From positions 1-21,347 of the forward strand of contig CAIYYW010000215.1 in NCBI GenBank assembly GCA_903930515.1: a stretch of DNA of 21,347 bases, read 5' to 3'. The position numbers and the translations under genes were made by a program. Shown here piece by piece: positions 1-15,274 of the stretch. Below the pieces are notes generated by a model. The model was given only the letters and a program-made list of their open reading frames with translations, ran no database searches and was not told the DNA's origin. Source of the stretch: an uncultured delta proteobacterium (GTDB lineage: Bacteria > RBG-13-61-14 > DRUE01). Positions within the stretch are counted from its first letter, which is position 1; each line of letters begins with the position of its first letter.

Positions 1-398
1 ATTTTCCCCTCCTAATTTTTAGGCTCCTCTAGCAAATTTGTGTGAGAAGCACCGGGGGTCAGGTCTAAGGTTTGAATTTAAGGTCATGCTTGATCCCTTG
101 GCTTCAGCCTCAGGCCTGAAGAGTTTGCCCGGTTTTTTTAAGATTTTATCGTCCCGCCCCATTCTGTCTGTTCCCTCCTGAATTCGCCCCAACCGCCTGA
201 CCTTTTAACTGCACGGATATTGGAGCACATATTAAAGATGCGGTCAAGTCCGGAGCAGGGGTTAGTGGGTAGTGGTCAGTGGTTAGTGAAATTTCCCAAT
301 TTCCGAATTCCAAGCCTTGCATCCCGAATTCTCAGCGTTCTCTGCGACTCTGCGGTGAAGACGGATTGTATCGCGCCTTCCTCCTTCGTCCCGTTCAA

Positions 399-426
399 CG
401 CAGGCAAGAGTGCCTGCGGCCCCTAG
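399..426 (+). repeat. Hairpin element, AGAG loop, copy 1
   Basis: A perfect 8-bp stem CGCAGGCA / TGCCTGCG (399-406 and 411-418) closes an AGAG tetraloop and is followed by G-CCCC-TAG. A second copy at 14444-14470 has the same loop and tail, but its stem differs by paired (compensatory) changes. No U-tract follows, so it is not a classical terminator. Confidence 0.75.
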
Positions 427-433
427 AAAAATG

Positions 434-460
434 TTCGGCGGACAAGAAAGACGCTCGCAC
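434..460 (-). repeat. REP-like GTGCGAGCG element, copy 1
   Basis: On the minus strand this reads GTGCGAGCGTCTTTCTTGTC then CGCCGAA. The GTGCGAGCG-N-CTTT head is shared with 14471-14494 and, as ATGCGAGCG, with 14742-14762. The CTTGTCCGCCGAA end recurs at 14724-14736. The head resembles the GTGGGAGCGG-type head of Pseudomonas REP sequences, but no REP transposase gene is in the window. Confidence 0.5.
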
Positions 461-1244: not shown

Positions 1245-2204
1245 ATGTATCTGGCAGGACTGGATATTGGAGCGACCAAGACCAAGATTATTATTTTCAC
1301 TGAGCAGGGCAAGGTGATCAGCCGGGAGAAGATTTTGACCGATAGTTTTAACCGGGTGGAACCGATTATTGAGAAGTCCTGCGCGCAGATTGAGCGGATG
1401 CTGAAGGACCAGGGGATCCGGAGATCAGAGTTGGGGGCGCTGGGGGTTGGCTTGGCCGGACAGTTGGACCCGGAGACCGGCTATGTTGACAACTCTCCGA
1501 ACCTGAAATGGTTCGGGGTCAATTTCGGGAAAAAATTTGAGAAACGGATCAAGAGAAAAATCCGGCTGGCCAATGATGTTAACGCCGCGGCTTGGGGCGA
1601 GTTTGTTTACGGAGCGGCCAGGGGCAAGGGGTATCGGAACCTGGTCGCGGTTTTTCCCGGCTCCGGGATCGGCGGCGGGGTGGTCTGCAACGGCTGCCTG
1701 GTGGAAGGGGCGACCGGGACCGCGGCGGAAGTGGGCCATTTGATCTTCCGCGAGAACGGCTTGCTCTGCGACTGCGGGCATCGGGGCTGTCACGAGGCCT
1801 ATGCCGGCGGGGTGCCGATGGAGAACCGGATGCGGAAACTGGTCCGGGCGGGCAAGGGCAAGCTGGTTGATAAAATGGTCAACGGGGACCTTTCCAAAAT
1901 CAACACCCGCACCATCGCGGACGCGGCCCGGAAAGGGGATGCCTCGGCGAAGGAAGTCTGGAGCGACGCGGTGTCCAGTTTGAATGTTTTATGCGCGAAC
2001 CTGGTGAGCGTATTCAACCCGGAGGTGTTGGTCCTGGGCGGAGGGGTGATTGAAGGAAATCCGATCCTGGTCCCGACCATCCGCAATTATGTCAAGACCC
2101 ACGCGGTGGATTACAGCGCGAAAACGGTTAAGGTGGTGAAGAGCAACCTGGGCGGAGACGCCGTGGCCATGGGCGCGGCCGCGCTCGGTGCGTTTGAGGG
2201 ATAG
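1245..2204 (+). CDS. ROK family sugar kinase (glucokinase-like)
   Basis: A 319-residue ROK (repressor, ORF, kinase) family protein without the N-terminal DNA-binding domain of ROK repressors. It is therefore most likely a cytoplasmic ATP-dependent hexose or amino-sugar kinase. Visible motifs: phosphate-binding DIGATKTK (7-14); catalytic Asp111 in NDVNAAAWGE; a glycine-rich segment around GSGIGGG (139-145); EVGH with zinc-ligand His165; and the CDCGHRGCHE signature with Cys175, Cys177 and Cys182; then LGGGV near the C terminus. Glucokinase is the default guess, but N-acetylmannosamine, N-acetylglucosamine, fructose or allose kinases cannot be excluded. GGAGG lies just before the ATG, and the next gene starts 10 nt after the stop. 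Confidence 0.88.
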   Translation: MYLAGLDIGATKTKIIIFTEQGKVISREKILTDSFNRVEPIIEKSCAQIERMLKDQGIRRSELGALGVGLAGQLDPETGYVDNSPNLKWFGVNFGKKFEKRIKRKIRLANDVNAAAWGEFVYGAARGKGYRNLVAVFPGSGIGGGVVCNGCLVEGATGTAAEVGHLIFRENGLLCDCGHRGCHEAYAGGVPMENRMRKLVRAGKGKLVDKMVNGDLSKINTRTIADAARKGDASAKEVWSDAVSSLNVLCANLVSVFNPEVLVLGGGVIEGNPILVPTIRNYVKTHAVDYSAKTVKVVKSNLGGDAVAMGAAALGAFEG

Positions 2205-10933: not shown

Positions 10934-12949
10934 ATGCCTTCCATTCAGACCGGACTGCTCAGCAATATCGTGATCATCATGGCCCTGGCCGTGGCCGTCC
11001 TGTTCATCTGCTTCCGGCTCCATATCCCGTCCATCGTCGGGTTCCTGATCACCGGGATCCTGGCAGGCCCCAGCGGGTTCCGATTGATCAAGCAGGTCAG
11101 CGAGGTCCAGACCCTGGCCGAAATCGGAGTGGTGTTCCTGCTCTTCACCATCGGCATTGAATTCTCCTTCCAGCGCCTGTCCCGACTCAAGCGCGCCGCA
11201 CTCCTGGGCGGCTCCCTCCAGATCGCTTTGACCACCCTCGCGGTTTTTTTCATTATGACCCGGCTCGGGTTCCGATCCAACCTCTCCATCTTCACCGGGT
11301 TCCTGATCTCGTTAAGCTCAACCGCCATCGTGCTCCGGACCTTGCAGGAAAAGGCCCAGGTGGAATCTCCGCACGGTGGGGCCGCCCTCGGGATCCTGAT
11401 CTTTCAGGACATCGCCGTGGTCCCGATGATGCTCCTGATCCCGCTCCTGGCCGGAGGCGATGCCCATCTCGGAAAATCCCTCCTGGTCCTGCTCGCCAAA
11501 GGAATCGGCATCGTCCTGATCGTGATCGTGGCCGCGGAATGGCTGGTCCCGCGAGTGCTTTTCCAGATCGCCCGGACCAAAAGCCCGGAGCTGTTTATGC
11601 TCAGCATCGTGGTGATCTGCTTGTCCACCGCCTGGCTCACATCCTCCCTCGGACTCTCCCTCGCCCTCGGAGCCTTCCTGGCCGGGCTGATCATCTCCGA
11701 GTCCGAATACAGCTTCCAGGCCCTCAGCAACATCTATCCCTTCCGCGATGTCTTCACCAGCTTCTTCTTCATCTCGGTCGGGATGCTGCTCAACCTTAAT
11801 TTCTTCTCCGAACATCTCGGTTGGACCCTGCTCTTCGTGATCCTGGTCCTGATGATCAAATTCAGCATCGCCGCAATCTCCGCGGCCCTCTTGGGATTCC
11901 CCTTCAGATCCTCCGTCCTGACCGGACTGTCCTTGAGCCAGGTCGGAGAATTTTCCTTCATCCTCGCCGGAGCCGCGCTCGGTTCCCAACTCCTGCCCGC
12001 GAACATCTATCAATATTTCCTCGCCATCTCCGTCCTCACAATGATCCTCACCCCTTGGATCATTGACTTATCGCCCCGGATCGCAGACCTGCTCGCCAAG
12101 CCGCTCCCGAAAAAACTTAGCCGGGGTTGGCATCGCTTCCCGGAATTGGAAGGGTTTGACGCCAGAAACCTTGCCGACCATTTGATCGCAATCGGGTACG
12201 GGATCAACGGGAAAAATGTCACCCGAGCCGCCCGGATCGCCGGGATCAAATATGTGATCATAGAAATGAACCCGGAAACCGTGCGCCGGGAAAAGGCCGG
12301 GGGGGAGAAAATATTTTACGGGGACGCCACCCAGGACGCGGTGCTCATCCACGCCGGGATCAAGGCCGCGCGCGTGGCCGTGATCGCGATTTCCGATCCT
12401 GTGGCCACCCGCCGGATCTGCTCAAACCTGCGCCGGCTCAACCCCAAAATCCATATCATCGCCCGCACCCGCTATGTCCAGGAAGTGAAGCCGCTGCATC
12501 AATTAGGAGCAGACGAGGTGGTCCCGGAGGAGTTTGAGACTGCGGTGGAAATATTCACCCGGGTGCTCAGGAAATATTTGATCCCGCATAACGAGATTGA
12601 AAAGTTCGTCGCCGAGATCCGCTCGGACAATTACGAGATGTTCCGGGGACTGGCCAAAAAGGAAATCACCTTTTCCGATTTGAAATTGAGCCTGGCCGAC
12701 CTGGAGATCAGGAACTTCCGAATCATACAGGGCGCGCCCGTGGACGGAAAAACCCTGGCACAGATGGAGCTTAGAAAAAAATACGGAGTCACCGTGCTCG
12801 CCATCGGACGCGATAACCAGATCCATTATAACCCCGACCCCGATGCCACCCTCCACGCCAATGACATCGTTATCCTCCTCGGAAAACCCGACCGCATCGC
12901 CGCAGCCCTGCCCCTGTTCATAAGCCAAGAACAAGCAAACAACGGTTAG
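10934..12949 (+). CDS. CPA2-type monovalent cation:proton antiporter with RCK (TrkA) domains, KefB/KefC-like
   Basis: A 671-residue inner-membrane antiporter of the CPA2 family, exchanging K+ or Na+ for H+. A membrane domain of 11-13 hydrophobic segments fills residues 10-375, with GILAGPSG (41-48), SLSSTAIVL (127-135), the QD motif in FQDIAVVP (157-164), Lys309 in a later helix, and SQVGEFSF (335-342). A cytoplasmic RCK_N/TrkA_N domain (about 413-545) has a GYGINGKNV nucleotide loop (421-429) and acidic Glu444 at the second strand end. A TrkA_C domain (about 580-660) follows, so nucleotide or ligand gating is likely. The ATG at 10934 has no Shine-Dalgarno; the predicted -10 box lies 6 nt upstream. 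The TAG stop (12947-12949) overlaps the tail of a hairpin repeat. Ion specificity is not readable. Confidence 0.88.
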   Translation: MPSIQTGLLSNIVIIMALAVAVLFICFRLHIPSIVGFLITGILAGPSGFRLIKQVSEVQTLAEIGVVFLLFTIGIEFSFQRLSRLKRAALLGGSLQIALTTLAVFFIMTRLGFRSNLSIFTGFLISLSSTAIVLRTLQEKAQVESPHGGAALGILIFQDIAVVPMMLLIPLLAGGDAHLGKSLLVLLAKGIGIVLIVIVAAEWLVPRVLFQIARTKSPELFMLSIVVICLSTAWLTSSLGLSLALGAFLAGLIISESEYSFQALSNIYPFRDVFTSFFFISVGMLLNLNFFSEHLGWTLLFVILVLMIKFSIAAISAALLGFPFRSSVLTGLSLSQVGEFSFILAGAALGSQLLPANIYQYFLAISVLTMILTPWIIDLSPRIADLLAKPLPKKLSRGWHRFPELEGFDARNLADHLIAIGYGINGKNVTRAARIAGIKYVIIEMNPETVRREKAGGEKIFYGDATQDAVLIHAGIKAARVAVIAISDPVATRRICSNLRRLNPKIHIIARTRYVQEVKPLHQLGADEVVPEEFETAVEIFTRVLRKYLIPHNEIEKFVAEIRSDNYEMFRGLAKKEITFSDLKLSLADLEIRNFRIIQGAPVDGKTLAQMELRKKYGVTVLAIGRDNQIHYNPDPDATLHANDIVILLGKPDRIAAALPLFISQEQANNG

Positions 12950-13086
12950 GGGCGCCGGACACGCGTCCGGCCTTCGTAGCCGTAATCTACTACTGCGGAG
13001 TAGGCTGTCCCACTCTTGTCAACGAACAATTAAGCTTCAATTCGTCTTCACCGCAGAGGCACAGAAGCCGCAGAGAATTATTTTTT
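12947..13086 (-). repeat. Intergenic mosaic repeat block 2
   Basis: Read on the minus strand, modules appear in the order: TTCTCTGCGGCTTCTGTGCC then CTGCGGTGAAGACG (about 13079-13037); a decayed GACAAGAGTG element (13024-13008); a CCGCAGTAGTAGATTACGGC module (about 12997-12978); and the GCCGGAC-GCGT-GTCCGGC hairpin with GCCCCTAAC tail (12971-12945). The first, second and third modules recur in block 3 in the opposite orientation. It fills most of the gap between the convergent antiporter and nuclease-like genes; no gene is seen in it. Confidence 0.65.
12948..12971 (-). repeat. Hairpin element with CCCCTA tail, copy 2 (GCGT loop)
   Basis: A perfect 7-bp stem GCCGGAC/GTCCGGC (12954-12971) closes a GCGT loop (minus strand) and is followed on that strand by G-CCCC-TAA, the same tail as the AGAG-loop hairpins. 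The tail overlaps the antiporter TAG stop codon. On the plus strand it may also act as a 3' mRNA-end structure for the antiporter, although no U-tract follows. Confidence 0.6.
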
Positions 13087-13770: not shown

Positions 13771-14253
13771 TTAAACCTCCTTGCTATAAACGATCTGGTC
13801 TTCCCCATGGTCATAATAGTCTTTGAAGACACCTTCTTTTTTAAATCCCTGCTTAAGGTAAAATCTCCGCGCGCCTCGATAGAAGCTCTTGCTACTGGTG
13901 TCCACATAAATTTTTCTCGCCGACTTTTCTCGAAGCTCCCTAAAAATATGACTCAAAAGTGCTTTGCCTATTCCCCGCCTCTGGTTCTTGCTTTCAACAT
14001 AAGTCCATCCTAGCCAGTAGATGCCACTATCCGAATAATCATCATAAAAGTATCCGGAAACTCCGATGATCATCTTTTTATCTTTTACAACAAAGACTCT
14101 ATCCCGTGGCCTATTTTTATCCTCAAAGTATCTCCGGTAATATTTTTCTGCATCCCGGCTATCTGAAGATCGCTGGCGGCCTATAACTTCCAAAATATAA
14201 TCTTTGTCCCGTGACCGAGATCTTAAGACTCTTATTTTATTTATAGCCACCAT
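13771..14253 (-). CDS. GNAT family N-acetyltransferase
   Basis: A 160-residue acetyl-CoA-dependent N-acetyltransferase. Motif A is seen as WTYVESKNQRRGIGKALLSHIF (83-104), with Q91-RRGIGK as the pyrophosphate loop; motif B follows as FYRGARRFYLKQGFKKEGV (124-142). Length is typical for a single GNAT domain. Substrate is unknown; Rim-like protein acetylation, small-molecule acetylation or a toxin role all remain possible. The ATG at 14253 lacks a clear ribosome-binding site and a GTG codon follows it directly, so the start is uncertain. It is the first gene of a two-gene A+T-rich cassette with the nuclease-like gene and overlaps that gene's ribosome site. Confidence 0.82.
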   Translation of the reverse strand: MVAINKIRVLRSRSRDKDYILEVIGRQRSSDSRDAEKYYRRYFEDKNRPRDRVFVVKDKKMIIGVSGYFYDDYSDSGIYWLGWTYVESKNQRRGIGKALLSHIFRELREKSARKIYVDTSSKSFYRGARRFYLKQGFKKEGVFKDYYDHGEDQIVYSKEV

Positions 14254-14443
14254 CTTGAAACCATCGGGGTCAGAATTGAGACAATTTTTGCGGATCGAGC
14301 CTTGATCGCCTTCAATCTCCTCCTCTTCCGATTCTTTCCCTATCCTCCCCGCTTTCAGGGGTTCGCAAATTTACTGCTTAAATTAACTGCTGTTTCAAAT
14401 TATGCCGGAATTTGGAAGGGGTGTCAAATGTCTGCGCTGGAAT

Positions 14444-14470
14444 CACAGACAAGAGTGTCTGTGCCCCTAA
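14444..14470 (+). repeat. Hairpin element, AGAG loop, copy 3
   Basis: A perfect 8-bp stem CACAGACA / TGTCTGTG (14444-14451 and 14456-14463) closes AGAG and is followed by CCCC-TAA. Against copy 1 (399-426) both sides of the stem change together: G-C to A-T at positions 2 and 6. This paired change is direct sequence evidence that the folded form is maintained. Confidence 0.75.
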
Positions 14471-14494
14471 TATCGCGGCTAAAGCCGCTCGCAC
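14471..14494 (-). repeat. REP-like hairpin element
   Basis: The minus strand reads GTGCGAG-CGGCTTTAGCCG-CGATA, a GCGGC/GCCGC stem with a short loop behind a GTGCGAG head. It resembles Pseudomonas-type REP units (GTGGGAGCGG...). Related heads occur at 434-460 and 14742-14762. A true REP system would need a RAYT transposase elsewhere in the genome. Confidence 0.5.
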
Positions 14495-14833
14495 ATTCAA
14501 AGGAAAAAAACTTTGCGTAGGACACTGCGTGTCCCTTTGCGCTCTTTGCGGTGAGAATGCATTATTTCGGGTTTCTCATTATCGCGCCTTCCGCCTTCGC
14601 CGTTTGTTCTCCGTAGCAGTAGCAGACTACGGCTAGTTGGAAGGATGAAACAGAATGTCCGCGAATGAGGAGGCTTCCGGCCTTCGCTATCATCCGTCGC
14701 TAAAGCTATGGATGACAAGAAGCTTCGGCGGACAAGTCGGGGGACAGGAAAGTCGCTCGCATCCCGCGAAATATGCGGGACTCGCTCCGCTCGCAAAAAA
14801 ATTAATTCTCTGCGGCCCCTGCGGCACTCTGAA

Positions 14834-15274
14834 TTATTGATCAATTTTATCAATTCTATTCTGGTGTCGGCCGGCCTCAAATATAGTGCTGAGCCAGGTT
14901 TCCACCAGTTCCTGAGCGAGTTCCTTGGCGGTCACCCTTGCGCCGATGCAGAGGATATTGGCGTTATTATGTGACTTGGCCATCCGGGCGGTAAAGTGGT
15001 CGTGGACTAATGCGGCACGGACTCCGGGGAATCGGTTGGCAGTGATGCACATCCCGATCCCGGACCCGCAGAGCAGAATCCCGAGCGGGACTTCTTCTTC
15101 GGCCACGGCCCTTGCCACTTTCTTGGCGTAATCCGGATAGTCCACCTTGTTTTTCCTACGCACCCCCATATCAATCACATTATGACCGCGCTTGAGCAAG
15201 AATTTCATCAGGTGCAACTTCAATTCCACCCCGGTATGATCCGAGGCAATGGCAATGTCAGGCTTATTGTCCAT
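14834..15274 (-). CDS. rpiB: Ribose-5-phosphate isomerase B
   Basis: A 146-residue cytoplasmic RpiB/LacAB-type isomerase that interconverts ribose 5-phosphate and ribulose 5-phosphate in the pentose phosphate pathway. Visible motifs: the SDHTG N-terminal loop with Asp12 and His13; the catalytic loop LLCGSGIGM with Cys69; ITANRFPGVRAALVHD with Asn80 and Arg81; SHNNANILCIGARV with His102; and the phosphate-binding end GRHQNRI with Arg136, His137 and Arg140. Length is typical. The ATG at 15274 has AGGAGGG about 8 nt upstream. It is the last gene of the minus-strand group beginning at 18062, 76 nt after the epimerase gene. An allose-6-phosphate isomerase activity is a family alternative. Confidence 0.93.
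   Translation of the reverse strand: MDNKPDIAIASDHTGVELKLHLMKFLLKRGHNVIDMGVRRKNKVDYPDYAKKVARAVAEEEVPLGILLCGSGIGMCITANRFPGVRAALVHDHFTARMAKSHNNANILCIGARVTAKELAQELVETWLSTIFEAGRHQNRIDKIDQ

Follow-up and report, generated by a model that had tools for sequence, protein, structure and literature searches.

We describe a family of roughly 110 short, tagged hairpins in the genome of an uncultured deltaproteobacterium, two of which lie in the 21,347-nucleotide stretch of DNA analysed here (the window). The best overall explanation, to which we assign a probability of roughly 85%, is that they are REP elements, probably spread by a RAYT transposase. Membership among the REPs is in our judgement highly probable, and movement by a RAYT probable.

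Tagged hairpins dispersed over the genome

Copy 1 (395-426, minus strand) joins the tag CTAGGGGC to a perfect 8-bp stem, CGCAGGCA/TGCCTGCG, with the minus-strand loop CTCT; on the forward strand its hairpin (399-418) reads CGCAGGCA-AGAG-TGCCTGCG, then GCCCCTAG. It is intergenic, upstream of a DUF502 gene (551-1225), and scores 35.7 bits (E 1.1e-7) when the window is searched with the covariance model of the family. Copy 2 (14440-14471, minus strand; 44.8 bits, E 3.8e-10 in the same search) has the tag TTAGGGG, the perfect 8-bp stem CACAGACA/TGTCTGTG and again the minus-strand loop CTCT, its hairpin (14444-14463) reading CACAGACA-AGAG-TGTCTGTG and then CCCCTAA on the forward strand. It too is intergenic, between a GNAT gene (13771-14253, minus strand), named from a domain search, and a sugar-phosphate isomerase-like ORF (14834-15274, minus strand), named by eye from its sequence. 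Between the two perfect stems there are two differences, and at both the partner base has changed as well (G-C versus A-T), exactly as the preliminary description had it. That description read the elements backwards, however, because its CCCCTA tail is the 5' tag (TA)GGGG of the minus strand. Read on that strand, the element runs from tag to hairpin: (TA)GGGG, CTGGGG, TCGTGG or TCGTAG, then CGCAGACA-CTCY-TGTCTGCG. In the element, a 4-nt 5' tag precedes a perfect palindrome of 8 bp (core CAGACA/TGTCTG) whose 4-nt loop is CTCY.

Perfect hairpins are not enriched in the window (7 observed versus 9.85 expected from Markov shuffles), and the case therefore rests on recurrence across the genome. A covariance model built from 29 own-genome copies finds 106 matches at E<=0.01, a number that rises to 123 at E<=1, and the copies are dispersed over 74 contigs. 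Pattern searches agree: RGACAAGAGTGTCY...CCCCTA (RGACAAGAGTGTCYN{0,4}CCCCTA) has 14 genome matches, and CAAGAGTGN{4,14}CCCCTA has 23, versus none for the reversed-pattern control in either case. Besides these whole-genome searches, we drew a sample of about 0.79 Mb of unmasked bases by contig, which is enriched, since one of its four contig sets was picked for known copies or Y1 genes, and which was not used for copy number. The commonest 12-mer of this sample is GACAAGAGTGTC, with 24 copies. Sample copies were chosen by tag and loop with no stem required, and their stems proved to be paired; the exceptions were truncated copies, plus a couple of matches due to chance.

Tags among 43 own-genome copies form a series, with GGGG in 26, GTGG in 9 and GTAG in 1. 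The copies are strongly biased to extragenic sites: only 10 of the 43 lie inside ORFs of at least 200 aa, versus the 82% expected from the share of the sampled genome that such ORFs cover (p about 4e-17).

Two further copies had been proposed for the window. A third hairpin does exist, at 12954-12971 on the plus strand (GCCGGAC-ACGC-GTCCGGC) within the 12948-12971 first reported, but its membership in the family is unproven and was not upheld. Its score of 15.7 bits (window E 0.028) is not significant genome-wide. It begins 4 bp past the stop of a KefC-like gene (10934-12949), and the "TAA" of its supposed tail overlaps the TAG stop codon of that gene (12947-12949), so that the shared tail is partly coincidence; it is possibly a chance hairpin. 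The decayed copy placed at 13008-13024 reduces to an 8-base match (13011-13018) scoring 6.4 bits (E 8.8). We reject it as indistinguishable from chance, and a chance match is what it likely is.

A second family of tagged palindromes, GTGCGAGCG-NNTTNN-GCGAT, lies next to each of the window copies and points the same way, in a layout resembling that of Pseudomonas REPs. One member, GTGCGAGCGGCTTTAGCCGCGATA (14471-14494, minus strand), directly abuts copy 2 to form a mosaic, and a degenerate GTGCGAGCG element, GTGCGAGCGTCTTTCTTGTCCGCCGAAC..., occupies 427-460 (minus strand) beside copy 1. There are 23 sites of GTGCGAGCG in the 0.79-Mb sample, mostly running on into a short palindrome. About 60 bp from copy 2, at 14520-14534, stands a further short palindrome with another loop, GGACACTGCGTGTCC.

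Covarying stems and one-way arrays

Stems of the family covary. In the own-genome alignment, two-sided changes are seen in five of the eight stem pairs. Pairing holds in 97.8% of cells, a percentage biased upward because a few rows were picked with an eye to their pairing and because truncated copies were omitted. The covariation score is 0.444; shuffles gave 0.142, and sliding the partner gave no more than 0.176. Paired cells, cells changed on both sides and the covariation score all exceed every shuffle; the number of changed pairs was reached by 27 of 500 shuffles. Some stem pairs are G-U. Copies from other genomes, which took no part in model building, also covary, with 33 double-change cells when aligned by fitting to the model. 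The preliminary description had staked the idea of a dispersed, covarying hairpin family on the existence of further copies and of paired changes, and with 106 copies and paired changes at five of eight positions that idea has survived.

Neighbouring copies all point the same way: every one of the 17 pairs lying within 300 bp is head-to-tail, and none is inverted. At the junction TTGT|AGGGG a half-hairpin is joined directly to the next tag, giving 20-bp tandem arrays, and such junctions number 19 in the organism's own species, one in its sister and none in five other genomes. Arrays of half-hairpins, GGGGGCGGGACACTCTTGTA, were seen at five loci (L081, L103, L104, L106 and L108), often at contig ends, where assembly breaks. 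Same-way neighbours and half-hairpin arrays are unusual for REPs. It is conceivable, if unlikely, that the arrays (tag, 5' arm, loop and TGT, then AGGGG) record a distinct breakage and joining just past the hairpin apex. The agent might be a RAYT whose guide tag has shifted, or else a nuclease that cuts hairpins, for example SbcCD, and, if true, the process would yield one-way arrays in place of inverted REPINs. Either an enzyme or replication may have made the arrays.

Transposase genes between family hairpins

A covariance-model search over 60 genomes found, at E<=0.01, 82 copies in a genome of the same genus (G001), 27 in one of the same order (G002), 44 in a distant one (G056) and none in nearly all others. 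Among the copies shown for G056, most of the best-scoring ones carry the canonical GTAG tag. Among named genomes, the sole match to an exact 23-mer is contig 691 of the sister MAG "uncultured delta proteobacterium AlinenSedimentsD2_bin-1424".

Y1 transposases (PF01797) and hairpins were searched for separately and their positions then compared. The 2.8-Mb genome G055 has a single Y1 gene, and its only two model matches bracket that gene (G055:C5) in opposite orientation with GTAG tags; their stems are CACAGACA/TGTCTGTG, identical to that of window copy 2, and CACAGGCA/TGCCTGTG. At G001:C320 a gene (1290-1748) stands between model matches at 1247-1278 (plus strand) and 1766-1797 (minus strand), and its 152-aa protein scores 86.7 versus the cut-off of 80 for the NCBIfam model REP_Tyr_transpos (REP-associated tyrosine transposase). 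Similar two-sided flanks occur at G134:C131 and G018:C40, and a flank on one side only at G001:C487. A RAYT gene flanked by its REPs is called a REPtron (PMC3733652). That arrangement, a RAYT protein with family hairpins on both sides, is found at the four two-sided loci, in related as well as unrelated genomes. Of the proteins encoded there, those of G055 and G134 reach 60 bits, below the NCBIfam cut-off of 80. Furthermore, a generic scan found tagged perfect hairpins near most short-RAYT loci versus none of 14 long-Y1 loci.

In the organism's own assembly, which is 93.5% complete and in 401 contigs, no intact short RAYT was found. The only relative of the short class is a relic, a 73-aa frame (E 1.6e-5). 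Given this completeness, the number of contigs and the many copies at contig ends, either loss of the RAYT or a gap in the assembly may account for this. Around the own genome's four Y1 genes over cut-off, three long ones and one of 234 aa, no hairpin of the family lies closer than 1.5 kb, and we rejected these genes as cognate transposases for want of such flanks. The likely RAYT partner of the family resides in the sister genome.

Some RAYT domains lie in frame within much larger frames of 817-1399 aa, namely at L204/L188 (G055:C5), L203 (G134:C131), L207 (G049:C2) and L224 (G018:C27). Outside the RAYT domain these frames resemble Eco57I/PglX methylases, an anti-phage-type protein (DUF1156) or an SNF2 helicase, and all four host genes look like restriction/defence or helicase genes. 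Two of the four frames bear family hairpins at their edges. The literature searched offered nothing relevant on RAYTs that lie in frame within methyltransferase genes. Just upstream of the 234-aa Y1 gene, at L015:1894-1946 (G000:C94), is a hairpin with a 24-bp perfect stem containing GGGGACAG, which fits the GGGGWSAS motif reported for TIR-flanked tyrosine transposases (PMC3733652).

REP elements and competing explanations

Judged by its anatomy, the family is a probably new one among the REPs, a kind of miniature mobile DNA that is already known. Its tag, its hairpin and the hairpins flanking RAYT genes point to REP as the identity of a family that had been left unnamed; mobile palindromic units were aptly chosen as the nearest concept, and the statement that no named family matches gives way to REP anatomy and a transposase partner. 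The short perfect stem (8 bp), short loop (4 nt), high copy number (106) and predominantly extragenic location (10 of 43 versus 82%) expected of REPs are all present, and the tag is a GTAG-like tetranucleotide at family level, degenerate in the organism's own species. The GTAG-tagged REP superfamily with its 24 families (Di Nocera et al. 2013, PMC3733652) shares a 6-9 bp stem, a short loop, an unpaired tetranucleotide at one end, about 100 extragenic copies and RAYT partner genes flanked by repeats. It also includes degenerate tags (GYRG, GTRG, GTGG) and complementary stem variants. Unlike the superfamily as presented there, our family has a mostly GGGG tag in the own species and a CTCY/TTCY loop. 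Perfect palindromes and 3-4-nt loops are shared with REPtrons that have group 3 TnpAREP (Stenotrophomonas, Marinomonas; PMC8266576). Clusters within tens of bp and mosaics of two REP types recall REPINs and BIMEs (PMC3116915, PMC2817692), whose inverted or alternating order is, by contrast, absent from the 17 direct neighbour pairs.

The most likely mechanism is that these non-autonomous hairpins spread as folded single-stranded DNA through the action of a RAYT/TnpAREP, an HUH Y1 enzyme, and the copies in the own genome would have arisen in this way. What the enzyme recognises would be the tag together with the fold of the hairpin, whatever the precise bases of the stem, and stems would consequently drift in compensated pairs. 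Selection would then act on tag, fold and loop and leave the stems free to change in this paired way, the pattern that the alignment shows. TnpAREP is known to bind folded single-stranded REPs, those of group 3 included, with the tag playing the part that a guide sequence has in IS200/IS605 elements and specifying the cleavage dinucleotide; in one system a change from GTAG to GTGG shifted cleavage to CC (PMC8266576). By the same rule, the -GG tag found here predicts cleavage at CC.

Several observations count against RAYT-mobilised REPs, among them the lack of an intact short RAYT in the own genome, the GGGG tag of most own copies and the uniform head-to-tail order. The last of these, together with the missing cognate RAYT and arrays largely private to the own species (19 versus 1 versus 0), would suit amplification without any transposase, through recombination, slippage or template switching at hairpins only. 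Slippage accounts for local arrays but not for dispersal over 74 contigs, nor would it place inverted hairpins around RAYT genes at four loci, with a one-sided case at a fifth, and we regard this explanation as improbable. Slightly less improbable is that the hairpins are RNA-level elements, either terminators or stabilisers of mRNA 3' ends, kept by selection on transcripts, with copying incidental. Extragenic location, compensated stems and some G-U pairs would fit such a role, and a role at the mRNA level has been proposed for the REPs of other bacteria (PMC3733652). Yet a role in transcripts does not predict the conserved 5' tag, the tandem arrays or the association with RAYTs, and no Rfam family matches the window above its gathering score. 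Rho-independent termination in particular is rejected, because a terminator-like TTTT within 10 nt past the hairpin is rare, occurring in 4 of 43 copies on the tag strand and in none of 43 on the other. Chance or compositional hairpins might be suspected from the lack of any hairpin excess in the window and the weakness of the third and fourth copies, but the commonest 12-mer of the sample, GACAAGAGTGTC with its 24 copies, and the empty pattern controls make this a negligible prospect for the family; for copies 1 and 2, genome recurrence and those controls refute it.

As REP elements probably spread by a RAYT, the hairpins are for the most part an ordinary and well-precedented genome feature. 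The natural tag series GTAG, GTGG and GGGG on one conserved hairpin core makes the proposed RAYT rule that the tag selects the cut site directly testable. With this family, an uncultured deltaproteobacterial lineage gains a defined REP family together with a probable transposase in a sister genome.
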